Assembly: GCF_015210005.1 (NCBI RefSeq)
Contig: NZ_MU158698.1
Coordinates: 1,001,009 to 1,065,008 of the forward strand
DNA length: 64,000 bases
Direction of reading: 5' to 3'
Source: Sphingobacterium hungaricum
GTDB taxonomy: Bacteria; Bacteroidota; Bacteroidia; Sphingobacteriales; Sphingobacteriaceae
Positions 24,519 to 54,352 of the stretch are shown here, piece by piece. Made by a program: the position numbers and the translations under genes. The notes below the pieces were generated by a model. It saw only the letters and a program-made list of their open reading frames with translations. It made no database searches and was not told the origin of the DNA. How positions within the stretch are numbered: the stretch's first letter is position 1; the number at the start of each line of letters is the position of its first letter.

Positions 24519-24591
<73 letters not shown>

Positions 24592-24636: not shown

Positions 24637-24709
<73 letters not shown>

Positions 24710-44151: not shown

Positions 44152-45468
44152 TTATTGCTTATTAACATTGCCATAATAGAATGACGTTGGAGTCCCTTTC
44201 TTAATCAATCCTCCAATCATTGCTGATTTTGAAGTTGAACTTTCTACCCAAGCCAATTCAAATTCTGCATCGATGAAATAGTTCTTGATAGCTGTAGTAA
44301 CCCATCCATTACCCCAATTCGCATTTGATACACTTGGAATGTAATTTGAAAGTTTTATTGTATTTCCCGTTATGACATAGTCATATGACGCATCAGCCAA
44401 ATACTGAGTTGTACCGCTTAAAAACCAAACTTCAAGCTTCGCTTTTCTAGGGTCAACCAATTTAAATGTCATGGAAATCATTGAAACACTATTTAATTGG
44501 TAGTTCGCTAGCTGAGCAGCCCAAAGTTGATTAAAATCGGAAACCACACCTTCAGGCATAACGCTGCCAGTGGTATAGATTGAGTTATACACTCCGTTAT
44601 GCTTGAAATATAATTCAAACGGAAAAATTGGTTTAGCTTCGACTGTGATCGGATATTCCGTATTTGCCTCGTCGTAAGCTATCAAATTTCCTGCAGAATT
44701 AATTTTAAATCTTTTAATAACTATATCGTCAATAATTAACCCATTTATTACTTCTATGGCATCTATTGAAAAATAAAAACTTGCGGAAGTCGCTACTGAA
44801 CCGGCGTCAGAAAAATTTGTCGATGATACTTTTTTATTCGTAATATCAAAGCTAATTTGGTAGTCCTTACTTCTATGAGCCAACTTTGTAAATGCATTAC
44901 TTGAGAAGAAAGTTCTGTATTTGTTAATGTTAGTCGGGTATCCAGCATTCAGATAAGCACTTTGTTGCTCCTGAGTTGCTTTAACTAGAATTAATGGGTT
45001 TAGATATTTTTTTCCGACAAAAATAACGCTATCGCCAGATATTCTATCAAAATTATATTCTATATCACTTTGATATCCTCTGGCCGCTGTCCCACCTGCG
45101 ACCCCCGGAACTGGATCTTGCATCAATGTCAGATAATTGTAGGTGTCAAATATAAGAGATGCATTCGATCCCCATTTCACCCTGTATGTGGATTCAACTA
45201 ACGCAGTAGCCGATGCGGTAGAATAATCGCTTAACATTTTTAATTTATCATCTTCTGAAAACGAAATATAAAATCCGTAGCCACCTTTTCCACTAGTACC
45301 CATTCCCACTATCCATCCATTAGGAGCTTCTACTAAAGTCGATTTAACTTCTGCTAAAATTTCACTAACTCTTTCTTCCGGCGTTGCTCCGAATGTTAAA
45401 TCAGTATCCTCTTTCTTACAACCAATTAATAAAATTGGTAGAATAAGCATATATAATATATTTTTCAT
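44152..45468 (-). CDS. DUF4302-type lipoprotein of the second import locus
   Basis: The function is unknown. The 438-residue product starts with a lipoprotein signal (MKNILYMLILPILLIGC, Cys17). The mature part begins with PEERVSEILAEVKSTLVEAPNGWIVG and continues with GGYGFYISFSEDDKLKMLSDYS, features I associate with the DUF4302 family found beside SusCD pairs. No catalytic motif is seen. It is the last gene of the locus, 4 bases after the metallohydrolase gene, and is probably surface-exposed. It may bind the imported substrate; this is inference from position. Confidence 0.78.
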   Translation of the reverse strand: MKNILYMLILPILLIGCKKEDTDLTFGATPEERVSEILAEVKSTLVEAPNGWIVGMGTSGKGGYGFYISFSEDDKLKMLSDYSTASATALVESTYRVKWGSNASLIFDTYNYLTLMQDPVPGVAGGTAARGYQSDIEYNFDRISGDSVIFVGKKYLNPLILVKATQEQQSAYLNAGYPTNINKYRTFFSSNAFTKLAHRSKDYQISFDITNKKVSSTNFSDAGSVATSASFYFSIDAIEVINGLIIDDIVIKRFKINSAGNLIAYDEANTEYPITVEAKPIFPFELYFKHNGVYNSIYTTGSVMPEGVVSDFNQLWAAQLANYQLNSVSMISMTFKLVDPRKAKLEVWFLSGTTQYLADASYDYVITGNTIKLSNYIPSVSNANWGNGWVTTAIKNYFIDAEFELAWVESSTSKSAMIGGLIKKGTPTSFYYGNVNKQ

Positions 45469-45472
45469 CTTA

Positions 45473-46879
45473 TTATTTTAAAACTATAGGTCCATAAAAA
45501 TAATTACCCGCAGCGCCGTTGACTGAAAAACCTCCAAAAGTTCTGTACAGAGGATCTGTAGATGTAATACCTGTTGGTAAATATGATGCTACAAATTGTC
45601 TATTTGTTAGGTATGGAAGGAAAAATCTTTCAAAATTAACAAGTATGCTGGCGATTGCACCATTGCTGTACGTAGTTCCGGCTCCCTCAGGAATACTCTT
45701 AGTCCACGTTGTAAGCCCATTAGTGTTATTTATAGCCATATTAAAATCATAATCACCATAATAAACCGTGGTGCCTGTGCCCTGCGTAAACTCCACCCTG
45801 AAAGTCATTTTTGTCGATGATGCAAACAAAAATTGAACATTTCTTACGACCCAACTTGACGCAGCCATCGCTACTCTAAAATTTTCGTATACAGCTCTAA
45901 AATCAGCTGATTGTCCATAAGTCGCATAATGTGCAGCTGATGGGTTATAAGTAATCGATGCAATTTTATTATTTGCTAGCATCATTGGAAACGTTGTCGT
46001 AACGTCAACCGGGTCTGTAGCGTTATATTTTGTTTTTAAAACCGACTGAACTTCATTTTGCAACAGCTTAAAGTCAATGTTGTAAAAATCTTTAAAATAG
46101 GAATAAACAAGTCTTTCTTTGGCTCTTAGATCAGCTGCTGCTGCAGCATTTGTAGTTGCACAATAGTTATCAAAGTACACTTGCCCTTCCACCAAAAGAT
46201 GAGCAACCATTTCAGCAAAGTCTTCACCAAATGAACTTCTTGCATATTGAGATATAAATCCTAATGATTTCGCTACCGCTGCAGTATTTGCTGCACCAGT
46301 CCAATCTGCGGTATAATCAGATTTAGAAACCTGTTCAAATGACGGAGGAATAACGATATTCTGATTCAATATATGGGTGAATTCGTGATGAATAGTTCTT
46401 ATTGGTCGCTTTATTGCCGCTGGACTCGAGAAATTTAAACTATTTATTTCGTATAAGACTACCCTGCGTCCATTGTCCGCCGTACCCAAGGTAATACTTC
46501 CGTTATCATTGTACGATGGTGATCCTAATAGAACAAATTGTTTAGGGGTATATTGCTTAATAAAAGTTTTACCTGCAATCTTTTCGTATGGTTCCAAAAA
46601 TGTCGATAAAACTGCTGTCATCATTGGCTCCACTCTGTCCAAATAAACTGGAGAAACATCCTTGTTAATGTCAATCAAATTTCTGTCGAACCGATAAAGA
46701 GTTTCGATATTGTAAACATCAACAAATGTCTTTGACAACCATAGATCGACATCATTTTGAGCCGTAATATCTGAGTTATATTTACTCAAATCTACAGCAA
46801 GATTTTCATTATCTCTGGTACAAGACCCAAAGTTAAATCCAATTAAGATGGTTGCTAGTATATAAATATATTTTTTCAT
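45473..46879 (-). CDS. Substrate-import-associated HExxH zinc metallohydrolase lipoprotein
   Basis: This is a predicted surface zinc hydrolase, probably a peptidase. From the ATG at 46879 it has 468 residues, opening with a lipoprotein signal (MKKYIYILATILIGFNFGSC, Cys20). The zinc motif HHEFTHILNQ gives HEFTH at residues 165-169, and GEDFAEMVAHLLVEG downstream could supply the third ligand. This architecture is known as a family that co-occurs with SusC/SusD and DUF4302 genes. A frame extension to a GTG at 46912 overlaps susD and precedes the signal peptide, so it was rejected; an ATG at 46885 is also possible. The substrate is unknown. Confidence 0.85.
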   Translation of the reverse strand: MKKYIYILATILIGFNFGSCTRDNENLAVDLSKYNSDITAQNDVDLWLSKTFVDVYNIETLYRFDRNLIDINKDVSPVYLDRVEPMMTAVLSTFLEPYEKIAGKTFIKQYTPKQFVLLGSPSYNDNGSITLGTADNGRRVVLYEINSLNFSSPAAIKRPIRTIHHEFTHILNQNIVIPPSFEQVSKSDYTADWTGAANTAAVAKSLGFISQYARSSFGEDFAEMVAHLLVEGQVYFDNYCATTNAAAAADLRAKERLVYSYFKDFYNIDFKLLQNEVQSVLKTKYNATDPVDVTTTFPMMLANNKIASITYNPSAAHYATYGQSADFRAVYENFRVAMAASSWVVRNVQFLFASSTKMTFRVEFTQGTGTTVYYGDYDFNMAINNTNGLTTWTKSIPEGAGTTYSNGAIASILVNFERFFLPYLTNRQFVASYLPTGITSTDPLYRTFGGFSVNGAAGNYFYGPIVLK

Positions 46880-46889
46880 AATCATTATG

Positions 46890-48368
46890 TTATCTAGGAT
46901 TAAGTTCCACACCAGCTAATTTCGCAGTTTGAGGTATTTGAAACATTCTTCTATTGTCATCAGCTGTTAGGGTTTTATACGTTTCGTCACCTGCAGCATC
47001 TATAAATTTATGTTCAACAGGTAACCTATGTCTCAAAATATCAAACCATCTCATGCCCTCACACATCCAACCAATTTGTTTGAATTGCAAAACAGTTTTT
47101 AACAAGGCCTCTTTGTCATCAGCAACATTGAAAAATGTCCTTGATTTGTCTAACGTCACAGCATGCGTCGTAGCATTATAGTTTACTATTCTAACACTTG
47201 CAAACGTATTCAAATCTCTCATCGCCGACGCATAGTCTCCTTTTTGCGCGTATGCTTCCGCACGATTCATCAAACCCTCATCAGCAATAAATAATGGTTG
47301 CATTATGTACGGAAAGCCGATTCCTGCAGACAAGTTCGTGTAGTAAAAATATTCTCTAAAAACATAGGTTGTGTAATTTCCTTCAGACCACCTAAGACCT
47401 TTATTATAAAATGCTGCTCCGGTTGCAGTAACTCCGTTATAGATATTAAATACAGAAGTTCCAAAACCGTAACGTGTTGTACCACCAATATTACTTCTTT
47501 GATAAGTTGAATAGGTGTTAGCTAACAAAATATTATACGGTTTATCCGCTTTGGTCAACTCAGTTCTAAATTCCTCTGTGGTGTAAGTTCTTAAAGTAGT
47601 ATTCCAAGGTCTTAAGCTTGACAAATATTCTCCATTCGGTACGGCCAAGTTAGAATGTTCAATCACCTTATCCCAATCCCCTTTAAATAAAAAGAACCTA
47701 CTTGCGAATAAATGAGCTGCTGCAGGAGTAAAGTGATATTTTGGAACGTCCCAAGATCCGCCTTCCAAAAGCTTAATACCTTCCACAAGATCTTTCTCGA
47801 TTTGTTCGTAGACAGAAGCCACTGTTCCTCTAGAGTATTGAGGAAGCGTCTCTGTTTCAGGGGCAATCACGTAAGGAACTCCAGGACTATCATTTGACTT
47901 TCCAATCTCATAAGCTTTGGCAAAAAATGTTACGAGCATAAAATGTGAATATGCACGAGCAACAAGAGCTTCACCCTTAAATTTTAGAACACTGGAATCA
48001 AAATCCTTTTCTTCAATCGCAGCAAGGGCTTGGTTGGCATTGTTTATTGCTGAGTAACACGCATTCCAATAAGCTGATGGCGTATTTGTAGCATCATCTT
48101 CGATGTCTTCCCAATTGTATAGACTGACAAACGGTTGATTAATGTGTCCTACTGCTGGCCCTTTATCAACAGCATTATCTGAATATGTTTCGGCCATTGC
48201 TAAATAATCGTAACCTGGATATGCTGAGGCTACCAACTGACCTACTTGTTCAACAGTGACAATTTCTGTCCGCATATCTGGAGCGACCTCCAAATACTTT
48301 TCACATGAGGAGAGAACCAATGTTGAGGTGAATAGTAATAATCCTAATTTTTTATTTAATATTTTCAT
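46890..48368 (-). CDS. SusD/RagB-family outer-membrane lipoprotein (second locus)
   Basis: This substrate-binding partner of the STN-type SusC lies 11 bases upstream in the operon order. The 492-residue protein has the lipobox VLSSC (Cys22) and CEKYLEVAPDMRTEIVTVEQV. SusD features include FKGEALVARAYSHFMLVTFFAKAYE, PAAAHLFASRFFLFKGDWDKVIEH, FIADEGLMNRAEAYAQKGDY and near the end FKQIGWMCEGMRWFDILRH. It differs strongly from the maltodextrin SusD, implying a different ligand. The downstream metallohydrolase and DUF4302-type lipoprotein suggest a peptide-containing or otherwise non-starch substrate, which is inference. Confidence 0.92.
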   Translation of the reverse strand: MKILNKKLGLLLFTSTLVLSSCEKYLEVAPDMRTEIVTVEQVGQLVASAYPGYDYLAMAETYSDNAVDKGPAVGHINQPFVSLYNWEDIEDDATNTPSAYWNACYSAINNANQALAAIEEKDFDSSVLKFKGEALVARAYSHFMLVTFFAKAYEIGKSNDSPGVPYVIAPETETLPQYSRGTVASVYEQIEKDLVEGIKLLEGGSWDVPKYHFTPAAAHLFASRFFLFKGDWDKVIEHSNLAVPNGEYLSSLRPWNTTLRTYTTEEFRTELTKADKPYNILLANTYSTYQRSNIGGTTRYGFGTSVFNIYNGVTATGAAFYNKGLRWSEGNYTTYVFREYFYYTNLSAGIGFPYIMQPLFIADEGLMNRAEAYAQKGDYASAMRDLNTFASVRIVNYNATTHAVTLDKSRTFFNVADDKEALLKTVLQFKQIGWMCEGMRWFDILRHRLPVEHKFIDAAGDETYKTLTADDNRRMFQIPQTAKLAGVELNPR

Positions 48369-48379
48369 GATTTAATTTA

Positions 48380-51300
48380 TTAAAATCCAACTTTTAGCGA
48401 AAGGGTATACTGACGTGGAATTGGCATCGCTACCCCACCATTATTAAAGAACTCTGGATCTGCTCCATTCAATTTCTTGTCAGAATACAACAATGAAAGA
48501 TTATTTCCAACCAATGCTAATTGCGCAGAGCTAATTGACAATCTGTCTGTTATGGACTTAGGCAATCTATAAGCGATACTCACATTTTTTAATCTTATAA
48601 AATCACCTTTTGCAACTCGCTGATCAGAATAGTTGTATGCGTTATACGGATAAACAGCATTTACGACTGCTCCAGTCGATGAAGTCACGCGGTTGTCGAT
48701 TGTATATCGGTCTAAAATTGCTGGTATATTCGTATACGCTTCATCACCCGGACGCATCCAACGGTTAACGATGTCTTTAGACATCGAAGTCATATCATTG
48801 TATATTGCGTCAACTGTAGGCTGTAACCTCACATAATTACCTGTTGCAAAAGTAAATAAAGCGGATACCGTAAATTGCTTGTAAATAAATTGATTAAAAA
48901 ATCCACCCGTTAATGTAGGGTCAACCGGTCCGTGGTATTTAAGGTAATCAACATCCGTACTTTGTAGGTAAATATTTGTTTCATTTCGTTGACCTTCAGT
49001 TCCGACATAAGTTGGATAACCGTATTCTGAGTTCAACCCATCAAATTCAATAGAATATAAACCTCTTTGGGATCTACCTAGCTGAGCAGCTCCTTCTGCT
49101 CGAACGAAATTCCAGATGTTGTCATTTATATCAATTTTGGTAATCTCATTTTTATTGACCCCAAAATTGAATTGAGTTCTCCATGAAAAATTATCTCTCT
49201 TTATTGGATTTCCTGCAATTGTCAATTCAAATCCTTTAGATTTCATATCTGCATAATTGGCGTCTTTTTCATATTCACCACCTATACCAGACGTCTTAAT
49301 CCTTCCAATTAAATCGAAAATATCCCTTTTATAAATATCAACTGTTACATCAATTTTATCATAGAATGCTAAATCAGCACCGATATTGAATTCGTATAAT
49401 TTTTCCCAAGTTAATTCGCTATTCTGAACATTGTTTGTATAAATTATTGCTTCCTTTTCATCGTCATAAGGTCTTCTCGCGATTTGGCTGTAAAACACCG
49501 CTCCCGAGTTATTAGCACTTCCCAAACTACCTACAAGACCATAAGTTGCTCTAATTTTAGCACCAGTAAGAACAGGATTTAAAGCTTCGAAGAAAGCTTC
49601 TTGATCCATAAACCAAGCTCCAGAAATGTTCCATGTCGGCAACCATCTAGCAGTTCTAGATCTACCCATTAAATTTGAACCATCATATCTAAACGTTCCA
49701 TTTAAAAGGTATTTTTCTTTGAATGAGTATGCAGAACGTACCGCAAAAGCCGTAAAACGATCTTTTCCATAGTTCATCCCAAAATATGGGTCTCCAGCTT
49801 CGATTGCATTTTTGAAATATTTATAATATGGATTTACAAGACCTCCATTATTATATTGATATCCGACACCGTCATATGCTGAATTTTGACGGTCAGTATA
49901 CCTAACTTCCATAGATCCAAAAAGATTTAATCTATGATCTACATTGAAAGTTTCATCAAATTCAAGATTGTGTCTGAAATAATAATTTTTAATTCCGTTT
50001 GTCGAGGTATTGAAAAATCCACCTTCAGGCAAAATTACTTCTGCTTGTTCATTTGGAAAATCGGGATCATCATAAAGTAAGATATTTCCATCATTGACAG
50101 TTGGGTTAGCATTTGCTCTAAAAGCCATCGCCATATTCGAACCGTCTTTTATATAATGCTGTCTTTCCGTTTTAGCATATCTGTATGCAGCATCTGCGGA
50201 ATAAGTTAAATTTTTAAGGAATTTGTATTTGATTCCTCCTTGAACTTTTATGTCCAATCCCTCTAAGTTTAAATAATTATTGTTGATCTCATTAATTATA
50301 TTAAACGGCGCATAGTTCATTGTAAAATATTCAAGATCGCCATTCTCATCATAAGGCGTAATCAGTCTACTGGTATTCAATGAATATGAATAAGGATTGA
50401 TATCGAAATTCCTAGAGTATTTTCCATAAACAGGATCCGATTCTCTGGTCAGAGTCCCTGGAGATCGCTGGTCCCTAATGGATGCATTAGCAAGTAATTC
50501 TGCAGAGAATTTATCAGAAAATTTAAAATTATTCCTCATGTTGACAGTATATCTCTTAACATTATCGCCAATAGTTTGACCACTATCATTCATGTAACTT
50601 GTAGAGAAATATGTTTGCGCTTTGTCTGATCCTGTAGAAACGCTTAAAGAATGTTCTTGTAATAATGAATTTTTAAACAAAACGTCAAACCAATCTGTGT
50701 TTGCATTTGCATAACGTGTCAAAAAGTTAAGACGATCGTTCATTGTATTCTTTAACATGAAAGAATCCGTTGTAGGATTGTACTCATACATTTGATTGTA
50801 CATTTTAGCAAATACACCACCACTGTTGTTATTTGCCATGCTACTATGATTAAAGTAGCCTTTGTTTTCTTGCTCAAGCAATACAGACATTTGCTCGCCC
50901 GAATTCATAATATCGAATTGGTCGTAGCTAGGCTTTAAGTATGTGGTAAAATTACCTGAATAGTTTATTAGCGGCTTACCATCAGTATTTCTACCTTTTT
51001 TAGTCGTAACGACAATTACACCATTCATGGCTCTCGCTCCATACATAGCTGTTGCTGCGGCATCCTTTAAAATCGTAAAAGACTCAATATCATCTGGGTT
51101 TAAACCGGCAACCGAAGATCCGATCAGTGTATTAGCATCACCCGTTGAAAGCGCCTCGTTTGAAATATTTACCACATCTTCAAGAATAATTCCATCGACA
51201 ACCCATAATGGCTTGTTTTCTCCAGAAAGAGAAGTAGCTCCACGAACACGAATTTTTGGTGCAGCACCAAACGTTCCCGATACGTTTTGAACTGATACAC

Positions 51301-52075
51301 CGGCCACTTGGCCTTCTAACATCCTAGAAATATCTGGAACTCCATTTCTCTCAGCATCTTTTGCATCCACCCGACTCGTAGCTCCCGTAAACAATTTGCG
51401 ATCGATATTTTGATATCCAGTTGCTACAACATCTACCGCTTCGATTTCTTGGTCATTAACTTTAAGAACGACGTTGATATTACTTCTCCCATTAACACTA
51501 ACTTCTTGAGAAAGAAACCCAACATAACGGATAACTAGTGTCGCATCATTGTTTGCCGCTAGTGAAAATTGTCCTCGGTCGTTTGTCGTGGTTGTAGTGT
51601 TTAATCCTTTAACGTTTACTGTGGCTCCAACCAAAGGAGAACCGTCGTCACCTCTAACAACTCCGGAAACATTATTTTGGATTTCGACGCTTTTTATTGA
51701 GTTAGTCGGAGATTTCTCTGTTAAAGAAATTGTATTAGAAACAATTCTATACTCGATATTTCTCTCCGTAAATACTTTTTTCAATACATCGTCGAGTTGC
51801 CCATTTTTAATTTCGATATTAACTGGCTTTGCTTTTTCGACCAATTCGTCATTGTAAAAAAACTTTAAATGTGTTTGTGCTGTAACTTCATTTATGAATC
51901 GCGAGAACTCAGCATTTTTCATCGAAAGAGATATGCGCTGTGCACGACTTTCGGCATACACTAGATTCAGTGTAAGAAAAAAAATAAAACAGGTTAGTTT
52001 CATAGTCTTAATGCATTGTCGAAACGGCATATCGCTGGTATACATACGCCATCTTTCAAATAATTTTTTATTCAT
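48380..52075 (-). CDS. SusC/RagA TonB-dependent transporter with STN signalling domain
   Basis: This 1231-residue outer-membrane importer can also signal. The extended N-terminus ends in a signal peptide (MKLTCFIFFLTLNLVYA from residue 25). An STN domain follows (about residues 50-120, SLSMKNAEFSRFINEVTAQT to SNTISLTEK), then a carboxypeptidase-regulatory-like domain (VSGVVRGDDGSPLVGATVNV), the plug (VVATGYQNIDRKLFTGA to KPLWVVDGIILED) and the barrel ending PRQYTLSLKVGF. The STN domain is the part that contacts FecR-type anti-sigma factors, and FecR and ECF sigma genes lie directly upstream. No exact TAnnTTTG box was seen in the 116-base upstream spacer, consistent with control by that sigma factor. 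Confidence 0.95.
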   Translation of the reverse strand: MNKKLFERWRMYTSDMPFRQCIKTMKLTCFIFFLTLNLVYAESRAQRISLSMKNAEFSRFINEVTAQTHLKFFYNDELVEKAKPVNIEIKNGQLDDVLKKVFTERNIEYRIVSNTISLTEKSPTNSIKSVEIQNNVSGVVRGDDGSPLVGATVNVKGLNTTTTTNDRGQFSLAANNDATLVIRYVGFLSQEVSVNGRSNINVVLKVNDQEIEAVDVVATGYQNIDRKLFTGATSRVDAKDAERNGVPDISRMLEGQVAGVSVQNVSGTFGAAPKIRVRGATSLSGENKPLWVVDGIILEDVVNISNEALSTGDANTLIGSSVAGLNPDDIESFTILKDAAATAMYGARAMNGVIVVTTKKGRNTDGKPLINYSGNFTTYLKPSYDQFDIMNSGEQMSVLLEQENKGYFNHSSMANNNSGGVFAKMYNQMYEYNPTTDSFMLKNTMNDRLNFLTRYANANTDWFDVLFKNSLLQEHSLSVSTGSDKAQTYFSTSYMNDSGQTIGDNVKRYTVNMRNNFKFSDKFSAELLANASIRDQRSPGTLTRESDPVYGKYSRNFDINPYSYSLNTSRLITPYDENGDLEYFTMNYAPFNIINEINNNYLNLEGLDIKVQGGIKYKFLKNLTYSADAAYRYAKTERQHYIKDGSNMAMAFRANANPTVNDGNILLYDDPDFPNEQAEVILPEGGFFNTSTNGIKNYYFRHNLEFDETFNVDHRLNLFGSMEVRYTDRQNSAYDGVGYQYNNGGLVNPYYKYFKNAIEAGDPYFGMNYGKDRFTAFAVRSAYSFKEKYLLNGTFRYDGSNLMGRSRTARWLPTWNISGAWFMDQEAFFEALNPVLTGAKIRATYGLVGSLGSANNSGAVFYSQIARRPYDDEKEAIIYTNNVQNSELTWEKLYEFNIGADLAFYDKIDVTVDIYKRDIFDLIGRIKTSGIGGEYEKDANYADMKSKGFELTIAGNPIKRDNFSWRTQFNFGVNKNEITKIDINDNIWNFVRAEGAAQLGRSQRGLYSIEFDGLNSEYGYPTYVGTEGQRNETNIYLQSTDVDYLKYHGPVDPTLTGGFFNQFIYKQFTVSALFTFATGNYVRLQPTVDAIYNDMTSMSKDIVNRWMRPGDEAYTNIPAILDRYTIDNRVTSSTGAVVNAVYPYNAYNYSDQRVAKGDFIRLKNVSIAYRLPKSITDRLSISSAQLALVGNNLSLLYSDKKLNGADPEFFNNGGVAMPIPRQYTLSLKVGF

Positions 52076-52128
52076 ATATTTGATAATTAGGGTTAATTTT
52101 TAATAATTTAACTTTAGGTTTTTTTTAT

Positions 52129-52152
52129 ACAGGGGTGCGCCAACACTCCTGT
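52129..52152. other. Imperfect hairpin between fecR-type gene and susC
   Basis: ACAGGGGTG pairs with CACTCCTGT (one G-T mismatch) around a 6-base loop in the 116-base spacer. On the minus strand, the direction of both genes, it is followed by ATAAAAAAAA rather than T residues, so it is a poor terminator. It could be a partial terminator, attenuator or processing hairpin. Confidence 0.35.
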
Positions 52153-52191
52153 TTTCGTTTAAGTCTAAATTTTATCTCATACGCATATAAT

Positions 52192-53349
52192 TTATTTGCT
52201 TTTTATTGTTAACTCTTTTCCATTTGTCAGAAATTTAAAGTCGCCCACAAATTCCAACATGCTCAGCACTTCGGATAAGTTCACATTTCTGTTAATAGAT
52301 CCCGAATATGTTTTTGATTTTGAAACGGATGATGCCAATTTGATATCCAAATCATACCACATCATTAATTGGTTTGCGATTTGTACGATGTTATCATTTT
52401 TAAAATAAAACTCGTTATTCTTCCAAGCAACCTCCTTCTGAAGATCGGCTTTGTCAATCACGAAGTTATTATTTCTCCATGCAGCGTAATTACCTGGCGC
52501 CAATTTCTCTGTCAGCCCGTGAAATGACACCTGAACACTTCCTTCTACGAGCGTAGTTTTAAAACTGTTGTGATATGATTTTATGTTGAAATGTGTACCG
52601 AGCACTTTCACTTCCTTTCCATTTACTTCGACTATAAATGGTTTTGTAGCATCTTTGGCAACTTCAAAATATGCTTCCCCATCTAAGAAAACTCGACGTT
52701 CACTCTTACTAAACTTCGTCGGAAATTTCACAGAAGACATCGCATTAATCCAAACGTGAGTTCCATCTGGTAGCTGCATTTTGAAGAAATTTGCTTTAGG
52801 GACTTCTAAAATATTGTAGATAATCGCTTCTTCTGATTCTAGCGCTGCATTTTCTACTATATTTTCCCCGTTCTTAGATGTGATTTCACCATTAGAACCC
52901 AAAATAATTTCGTCCTCAATCACAAATTCTTTACCATCAGCAAGTGTCAGTCGTGCGCCAATATTTGCCGGAGAAACATCAGCTTTCTTTTTAGTGTTAG
53001 CTCCTAAACTATTATTCGAATAAGTATTTTGTTGTTGATTCTGATAGTAGAAAAACGAAAGACCAAATAAGATGAGTATAGATGCTGCTATATTAATCCA
53101 AATTATCTTAAACCTATTTTTGCTATCGTTCTTTGATTTAAATTCTTCTAAAGATCGATCGACATCCAGCTTATCAAAAAATTCGATCTCTTCGGTATTT
53201 TGTGGATTTGATACCAGCTTTTGAAATAATTCTTTATTTCTAGGATCTTTATTAATCCAATTATGCAAGATGTCTAATTCGACATCTGTACATTCGCCAC
53301 TTAAATATTTGAAAAGAATGTCAGATAATTGAAAAGGTTCCTTATGCAT
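52192..53349 (-). CDS. FecR-family anti-sigma factor
   Basis: This inner-membrane protein is predicted to hold the adjacent ECF sigma factor until the STN-type SusC reports substrate. From the ATG at 53349 it has 385 residues. A cytoplasmic N-terminal sigma-binding region (YLSGECTDVELDILHNWINK) precedes a single membrane span (WINIAASILILFGLSFFYY, about residues 82-100). The periplasmic FecR domain (LPDGTHVWINAMSSVKFP, DGEAYFEVAKDATKPFIVEV, VLGTHFNIKSY) follows, then a C-terminal DUF4974-like domain (NVNLSEVLSMLEFVGDFKF). Upstream frame extension reaches only a TTG at 53406 and was rejected. Confidence 0.92.
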   Translation of the reverse strand: MHKEPFQLSDILFKYLSGECTDVELDILHNWINKDPRNKELFQKLVSNPQNTEEIEFFDKLDVDRSLEEFKSKNDSKNRFKIIWINIAASILILFGLSFFYYQNQQQNTYSNNSLGANTKKKADVSPANIGARLTLADGKEFVIEDEIILGSNGEITSKNGENIVENAALESEEAIIYNILEVPKANFFKMQLPDGTHVWINAMSSVKFPTKFSKSERRVFLDGEAYFEVAKDATKPFIVEVNGKEVKVLGTHFNIKSYHNSFKTTLVEGSVQVSFHGLTEKLAPGNYAAWRNNNFVIDKADLQKEVAWKNNEFYFKNDNIVQIANQLMMWYDLDIKLASSVSKSKTYSGSINRNVNLSEVLSMLEFVGDFKFLTNGKELTIKSK

Positions 53350-53402
53350 ACCATTAAGAAACCTAAAACCTGATTTGGGGTGACAAAAAAATATTTTTTT
53401 TG

Positions 53403-53930
53403 TCAAAAAAATAAAAAAACGCAGAAAAACACTAATAATTCTGGTTTTATAAGCCTTCTTATCGCTTCAATCCCTCTACGTTTTTGAGTTTTAACGGTAT
53501 TTACACTAAGTTGCAAGATTTTAGAAATTTCTTCATTGGAATAGCCATCTAAATATCCCATCCGGCAAATTTCTTGGCATGCTGTCGGCAATTTAACCAT
53601 CGCTTGCGAAACTTTAGAATAGAACTCGGCTTGGATTATACTGTTTTCTATGTCGACATCATCCATTTCGCTGTATTTGGTTTTATGCCAATACGTATCG
53701 ATGACTTTGTTTTTACGAGATATATTGTATGCAGCAAATTTAACGTTAGTATACAAAAATGATTTTATTGAAATTTCATCCGAGGAAATAGAATCTTTTT
53801 TTAAAAGATAAGCCGTGAACGCGTCTTGTGCTAAATCCTCTGCAATTTGAGCATCACCGATCAACTTCCATCCAAAATAACAAAGTCCTTTAAAATATTT
53901 TTTAAATAAATTTGAAGCTAACTCATCCAT
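53403..53930 (-). CDS. ECF-type RNA polymerase sigma factor (FecI-like)
   Basis: It is predicted to transcribe the downstream sus-type genes when released by FecR. From the ATG at 53930 it is 175 residues. Region 2 includes FGWKLIGDAQIAEDLAQDAF, and region 4 is DGYSNEEISKILQLSVNTVKTQKRRG, a clear helix-turn-helix. The Bacteroidota sigma-70 family usual size is similar. An upstream TTG at 53969 would add 13 residues and is less likely. The C-terminus ends in an unusual hydrophobic run (LLVFFCVFLFF) encoded by T-rich sequence. The fecR-type gene follows 53 bases after the stop. Confidence 0.9.
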   Translation of the reverse strand: MDELASNLFKKYFKGLCYFGWKLIGDAQIAEDLAQDAFTAYLLKKDSISSDEISIKSFLYTNVKFAAYNISRKNKVIDTYWHKTKYSEMDDVDIENSIIQAEFYSKVSQAMVKLPTACQEICRMGYLDGYSNEEISKILQLSVNTVKTQKRRGIEAIRRLIKPELLVFFCVFLFF

Positions 53931-54352
53931 TACTGTCAAATTAATAATTGTATCAAGAAAATGTTGCAAAGAAGCCCTAGCATCATTAACTCAAAGGCAA
54001 TGTAGAAAATTAAAACGAAAGAATAAGAATATTTATTTACAAAATTTTAATTTATTTAAATCAGAAGTAATAAAAAGATAATCTAAATTATTTTTTTATT
54101 TGATTCTAGCATACTATGCTCACATTTCTGTTCTATTACAATCAATATTCTAATTTTTTGAAATAAAAATATTTTTTTCATTAACAAAACAAATAACGCG
54201 TTAGTTTGAAGTAATTTATTTATAAAAATCAATCTAAAAAATTAAAAATATTTCTTCTAAAACAACTTTTGTTAAATCTCTAGGGCCGACTTAGCCAGAA
54301 AATCACATTTTTTTAGTAGTTTTATGATTTCCAAAAATCTCATTAAGATTAC
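53931..54352. other. AT-rich spacer between divergent sigma-factor and mrp operons
   Basis: This 422-base stretch is extremely A/T-rich with many homopolymer tracts and must hold the promoters for both divergent operons. No exact TAnnTTTG box was found on either strand that could be assigned with confidence. No gene, strong hairpin or repeat was seen. Confidence 0.6.

Follow-up and report, generated by a model that had tools for sequence, protein, structure and literature searches.

In Bacteroides thetaiotaomicron, the gene cluster BT4240-50 encodes a surface metallopeptidase that cuts mucin glycoprotein, and the resulting glycopeptides are imported via a SusC-SusD (SusCD) complex (PMC11992087). 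Polysaccharide utilization locus (PUL) 71 of the same species, with the SusCD pair BT3958/59 and the DUF4302 protein BT3961, is reported to be induced by mucin core-1 O-glycan (PMC5238430, PMC13088901, PMC10434189). A further related system is the iron capture system (ICS; icsACDEFGH) of Capnocytophaga canimorsus and Riemerella, whose description here rests on secondary sources; according to these, icsC-icsH take iron from serotransferrin in C. canimorsus and encode, among other proteins, a SusC, a SusD and a homologue of zinc metallohydrolases (PMC5429918, PMC7976709, PMC5976166). In the same sources, the Riemerella homologues of icsC-icsH form one iron-repressed cluster, the first gene of which is Fur-controlled, and the icsE homologue is annotated as a substrate import-associated zinc metallohydrolase (PMC5429918, PMC7976709). 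At the RNA level, the DonS antisense RNAs of Bacteroides repress susC (PMC7366714).

Here, we describe a locus of Sphingobacterium hungaricum that is related to these systems and lies in a 64,000-nucleotide stretch of contig NZ_MU158698.1 (hereafter the window, to which gene coordinates refer). Judged by its sequence, the locus, at 44152-53969, is the compact and self-regulated outer-membrane importer of a soil-type bacterium, built on a zinc peptidase of the Mx1 family rather than on sugar-cutting enzymes. We propose, with confidence evenly divided for and against, that it would work as a stand-alone SusCD complex for foraging on protein or glycopeptides, induced by its substrate and braked by an antisense RNA.

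The Cassette and Its Conservation in Bacteroidota

The cassette comprises six genes on the minus strand, found among open reading frames (ORFs) that were called mechanically; families beyond the Pfam scans were assigned with locally built hidden Markov models. In the direction of transcription, these are an extracytoplasmic function (ECF) sigma factor (53403-53969, 188 amino acids, with a TTG start at 53969 or an ATG start at about 53930; Sigma70_r2/r4_2, with TIGR02937 above its cut-off), a FecR-type anti-sigma factor with one apparent transmembrane stretch (52192-53406; FecR PF04773, 4e-16; FecR_C PF16344, 1e-15), a SusC/RagA TonB-dependent transporter of 1231 amino acids with an N-terminal STN domain and a Plug domain (48380-52075; TIGR04056, 2e-189; STN PF07660, 7e-10), a SusD/RagB lipoprotein (46890-48368; PF14322, 2.3e-34; PF07980, 1.1e-5), a lipoprotein of the Peptidase_Mx1 family with an HExxH motif (45473-46912; PF15890, 1.8e-69; TIGR04549, 5.9e-79) and a DUF4302 lipoprotein of 438 amino acids (44152-45468; PF14135, 1.6e-39). 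Wherever a model has a curated cut-off, all six genes exceed it, except for some generic sigma models. The pairing of a TIGR04056-type SusC with SusD makes this a SusCD import locus; it is not a PUL in the strict sense, since no carbohydrate-active enzyme lies in the cassette and none recurs beside it. The original prediction, made by a model from the letters and their ORFs, had named six co-directional genes of these families within these bounds and no glycosidase, and all of this is borne out, the last point also by the loci of relatives. What it overlooked are the C-terminal domain common to the two last lipoproteins, the antisense hairpin, the kinship with ICS and the named family models, all described below.

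The same prediction had proposed a comparison of gene neighbourhoods across Bacteroidota, and this reveals that the order SusC-SusD-Mx1-DUF4302 is kept almost throughout, in hundreds of related bacteria. At least 583 Mx1 relatives came from a scan in which each species was represented by one genome; from these, 79 loci were kept and joined to loci from sampled genomes, and 133 Mx1 genes were annotated, 125 of them non-redundant. Similarity to the window determined the ranking of the kept loci, so Sphingobacteriaceae are over-represented, and all counts given here are of loci and not of independent events, except in the tree test. The gene directly after Mx1 is DUF4302 in all but two of the 133 cases (131), and in those two the contig ends; SusC-SusD precede Mx1 in 128 of 133. 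The gene set recurs in Sphingobacteriaceae, Chitinophagaceae, Flavobacteriaceae and other families of Bacteroidota, far beyond chance; the DUF4302 partner occurs in most genomes of the genus of the window, and, in one gut-associated family, about a third of the sampled species (69/199) have a member of the Mx1 family. FecR was found in 91 of the 125 loci, and Mx1 is present also in the 34 that have no FecR/STN.

The operon normally stops at DUF4302, and nothing else recurs directly downstream outside a family of Bacteroides/Prevotella-like genomes (that of G285), in which 12 loci carry a BACON lipoprotein as a fifth gene. In the same family, L207 has gained a C11 peptidase of the clostripain family. 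These accessory gains mean more proteolysis and not glycan hydrolysis; among the 125 loci, from many genera, no glycosidase recurs beside the cassette, and a single alpha-fucosidase is found near one of them (L204). Conserved genes downstream in Pedobacter were set aside as apparently unrelated syntenic neighbours; the one that was scanned has no Pfam match.

The Mx1 Peptidase and the Domain Common to the Two Lipoproteins

The membership of the peptidase in the Mx1 family is clear (TIGR04549, 265 bits against a cut-off of 75; PF15890, 234 against 25.6). Residues 50-290 form the Mx1 domain, and a C-terminal domain covers about 305-479. The HExxH motif, H176-E177-x-x-H180, is intact and, together with E230, D231 and E234, is invariant in 42 relatives; HExxH is kept in 123 of the 125 Mx1 loci and the third-ligand motif in 123. 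A search for a third zinc ligand, which had been suggested together with modeling of the protein, thus ended in favor of a putative zinc site, for which the conserved acidic residues would be available. The AlphaFold2 model of Mx1 has a predicted local distance difference test score (pLDDT) of 90.9, and its only strong match to a solved fold is 4l7a (E 8e-16), which comes from Bacteroides caccae and is putatively a zinc metallopeptidase; another relative of solved structure is 9urd (phmmer E 6e-37). A literature search on these two structures returned nothing relevant. Foldseek also matched Mx1 weakly to further HExxH proteins, and these matches were disregarded.

The C-terminal domain of Mx1, which has no Pfam match, is homologous to the one that follows the DUF4302 domain (residues 23-257) in its partner (hhalign probability 99.4, E 4e-21, 148 columns). 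Long Mx1 proteins with this domain occur in 67 of the 125 loci, the others being short, and the state switches about eight times on the peptidase tree. It is likely from this homology that the common domain brings the two lipoproteins into contact with one and the same partner, be it SusCD, each other or the substrate. Six loci (L216-L220 and L222) have Mx1 proteins of 406-451 amino acids; the two that were read (L216, L218) owe their greater length to an insertion ahead of the final helices and not to a C-terminal domain like that of the window type.

The model of the DUF4302 protein has a pLDDT of 92.8. Fold searches with it, against the PDB and viral structures, gave no global match, and the weak lipocalin-like and fibrillin matches were not used. 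The lipoboxes of the cassette lipoproteins have K/R and acidic residues after the cysteine, and Mx1 appears to be lipidated like SusD; a location of the lipoproteins at the cell surface would be in keeping with these features.

Probable Control by Sigma Factor, FecR and Transporter

The presence of an ECF sigma factor, FecR and an STN-bearing transporter gives the cassette the gene set of surface signaling. Among 116 loci scored, FecR and STN are both present in 89 and both absent in 25, with two mixed cases (114/116 in agreement). On the peptidase tree, FecR changes about 23 times; 15.5 independent pairs change with STN in the same way and none in the opposite way (p ~3e-5). Such joint gain and loss provides good evidence for the transporter as the sender of the signal to FecR, and it supports the substrate-triggered control by the sigma factor that had been predicted from the gene content. 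The parts that covary here are those of FecI-FecR-FecA signaling, namely ECF sigma factor, FecR anti-sigma factor and STN-bearing TonB-dependent transporter; the difference is that the transporter of the window is of the SusC/RagA type.

A Predicted Antisense RNA in the fecR-susC Gap

Between fecR and susC, the plus strand carries a hairpin (52129-52152) that runs into a T-rich tail at 52153-52161. The hairpin lies antisense to the leader of susC, and we read it as the terminator of a predicted cis-antisense RNA. Over the start codon of susC, on the same strand, lies a putative -7 box, TATATTTG (52075-52082), of the Bacteroidota type TAnnTTTG. The predicted RNA would extend from about 52087 to 52158 (about 70 nucleotides). 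When fecR-susC gaps are compared side by side, the arms of the hairpin vary, and a T-run follows on the antisense strand. In 35 aligned copies, 99.4% of the cells are paired, with 73 double-change cells against 16 after shuffling; the covariation score is 0.73 against 0.28 in shuffles, and sliding the partners abolishes the signal. Of 90 FecR-positive loci, 31 have the box over the start of susC, 21 of them at the identical base, compared with 2-5 of about 90-125 at the starts of control genes, and box and -33 TTG occur together in 18 of the 90 against 0-1 in controls. A covariance model of the element (R1) scores 41 bits in the window (52116-52165, plus strand) and finds it in the gap of about 50 of 89 FecR-positive loci, many of which are training members; in a set of 36 loci without FecR it gave three weak matches only (E 0.045-0.085). 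No Rfam family matches at the hairpin. Two further R1 matches in the genome (708056, 2076100) were discarded as ordinary terminators.

The hairpin could instead belong to the sense strand, as a susC leader or as a terminator of fecR, an explanation that would replace the antisense step only and that we consider quite improbable. It would fit the T-runs that occur on both sides in many Pedobacter loci; however, on the sense side Sphingobacterium has no T-run, and whenever the model matches on both strands, the higher score is that of the antisense one. In addition, G-U pairs are found 28 times and A-C pairs never when the hairpin is read antisense, although the selection of copies would have permitted the opposite, and this identifies the antisense strand as the RNA strand.

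The signs in the sequence, an RNA opposite the 5' region of susC with its own promoter and terminator, are those of the DonS type, and the genomic orientation is the same. The window RNA differs in being a prediction, in its length (about 70 nucleotides against the 78-128 reported) and in lying outside Bacteroides. If expressed, it would probably lower susC.

Relation to the Iron Capture System

Three loci, L185 (from a genome of 2.7 Mb), L093 and L221, contain SusC, SusD, Mx1 and DUF4302 followed by a lipoprotein of about 210 amino acids and a DUF4856 protein. Number and order of the genes are as expected for icsC-icsH, an identification made by gene content only. The Mx1 proteins of these loci (L093:9043-10044, L185:9067-10242, L221:9041-10012) have no HExxH and read HHQ[FL]AK instead, one of them with a large insertion; on the peptidase tree, L185 and L093 group together in a fully supported clade, and L221 carries the same motif change. 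By this motif, they are natural inactive versions of the peptidase.

The four genes of the icsC-icsF type are all in the window cassette and in the order seen in these three loci. The icsG-like lipoprotein and the icsH-like DUF4856 protein are not in the window, where the operon ends at DUF4302, and, while the ICS type has no FecR/STN and its Riemerella cluster is under Fur control, the window cassette has its own sigma factor system. Because the cassette keeps HExxH and does not have the two extra genes, we did not file it as ICS; on sequence grounds, it is a sister of ICS with an intact active-site motif.

Proposed Function and Alternative Explanations

In the mechanism that we propose, the lipidated Mx1 and the DUF4302 lipoprotein would sit at the cell surface beside SusC-SusD; Mx1 would cut a protein or glycoprotein, DUF4302 and the common C-terminal domain would help to hold the substrate protein, and peptides or glycopeptides would be imported through SusC. 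Loaded SusC would signal through STN to FecR, which would free the ECF sigma factor and induce the operon, and the cis-antisense RNA, starting over the susC start codon and ending in the fecR-susC gap, would lower susC when the system is not needed. Gene content, conservation, the intact active-site motif, the coupling of STN and FecR and the covarying hairpin are read from the sequence, whereas the surface location, catalysis, the class of substrate and the expression and effect of the RNA are inferences. Foraging is favored because a lipidated peptidase is the only enzyme that is constant and the additions at other loci are lipoproteins and another peptidase, as well as by the analogy with BT4240-50, which likewise combines a surface metallopeptidase with SusCD for glycopeptide import, although its peptidase is of an unrelated family (M60-like, with CBM32) and glycosidases are present.

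Several observations weigh against this proposal. The DUF4302 protein has no known peptide- or sugar-binding domain and no solved homologue was found; BT3960 would be the Mx1 gene of PUL71 by its position; the antisense promoter of the window has a poor -33 TTG element; and further fecR-susC gaps of the genome (L199, L201 and L202) also have antisense hairpins, that of L199 with nearly the same sequence, so the hairpin belongs to control in general and does not set this cassette apart. This suggests that DonS-like RNAs are common in Sphingobacterium. Moreover, the same core families serve ICS, and this also speaks for an unlikely alternative, the capture of iron or another metal, in which the surface proteins would dock an iron carrier or chelate, SusC would import the iron and the peptidase would help to open the carrier. 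ECF/FecR/STN control is typical of iron uptake too, and the second cassette of the genome lies beside PepSY and outer-membrane beta-barrel genes. Against it, HExxH is lost in the ICS-type Mx1 and kept in the window type, and the icsG-like and DUF4856 genes are absent from the cassette. Upstream of FecR-type loci, the Riemerella consensus for Fur boxes shows no enrichment (12.80 against 12.75 in shuffled sequences), nor does an E. coli-type one, and the motif of the host genus may differ from both. Finally, the B. thetaiotaomicron relative BT3958-61 goes down, not up, on iron depletion (PMC10434189), which, together with its reported induction by mucin O-glycan, also favors foraging.

PUL71 can be read in another way, as it is reported to be induced by the core-1 disaccharide, galactooligosaccharides and milk oligosaccharides (PMC5238430). 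The cassette might accordingly import a glycan or glycoconjugate degraded by enzymes encoded elsewhere, with the peptidase only trimming the protein part; SusCD pairs are mostly glycan importers, and the alpha-fucosidase near L204 would fit. We judge this rather improbable, since no glycosidase recurs beside the cassette in the 125 loci, where the sole constant enzyme is the peptidase. Its strict one-to-one linkage with DUF4302 and the common C-terminal domain would suit a maturation or signaling protease acting on SusC, SusD, DUF4302 or FecR and not a digestive enzyme, yet the loci that have Mx1 without FecR/STN, the SusD-like lipidation of Mx1 and the enrichment of BT3960, the relative assigned by position, in outer-membrane vesicles (PMC6222051) make this very improbable.

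Other Features of the Window and of the Genome

The flanks of the cassette contain an acetyl-CoA synthetase and an Mrp-type antiporter, and profile scans found no glycosidase within it. PADLOC gave no match to defence systems. Two tRNA genes of the window (24519-24591 and 24637-24709, minus strand) have the same Rfam scores and are likely a tandem duplication. A second, divergent cassette occurs in the same genome (G000:C2:2421442-2431368; L034:4443-14369), with a divergently oriented ECF gene, FecR, STN-SusC, SusD, an HExxH lipoprotein (HEHAH), a short DUF4302 protein and a lipoprotein of 271 amino acids with CxxC; it has the antisense hairpin and adjoins genes for a PepSY protein and an outer-membrane beta-barrel. 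Tandem double cassettes, with two adjacent Mx1-DUF4302 operons, were seen at six loci (L037, L116, L120, L142, L038 and L044), often with one long and one short Mx1.

Conclusion

The peptidase family is already known through its models TIGR04549 and PF15890 and the solved members 4l7a and 9urd, with which the window shares the family and the SusC-SusD neighbourhood; it differs by the additional DUF4302-like C-terminal domain of Mx1, the ECF/FecR/STN control and the antisense hairpin. A literature search found no proved substrate for an Mx1 of the HExxH type. Our wider view, offered tentatively and with more doubt than the function proposed for the cassette itself, is that Mx1-DUF4302-SusCD may be a widespread, glycosidase-free importer for protein foraging, from which the transferrin ICS could have arisen by loss of the active site with docking kept, and that its FecR-type members may carry a covarying antisense brake extending DonS-like control beyond gut Bacteroides. 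The link between ICS and a sister with an intact active site suggests, in a form open to testing, how an importer that feeds on protein might turn to iron piracy. From the antisense element comes a clear prediction of an RNA, in a layer of regulation whose description has so far come mainly from Bacteroides.

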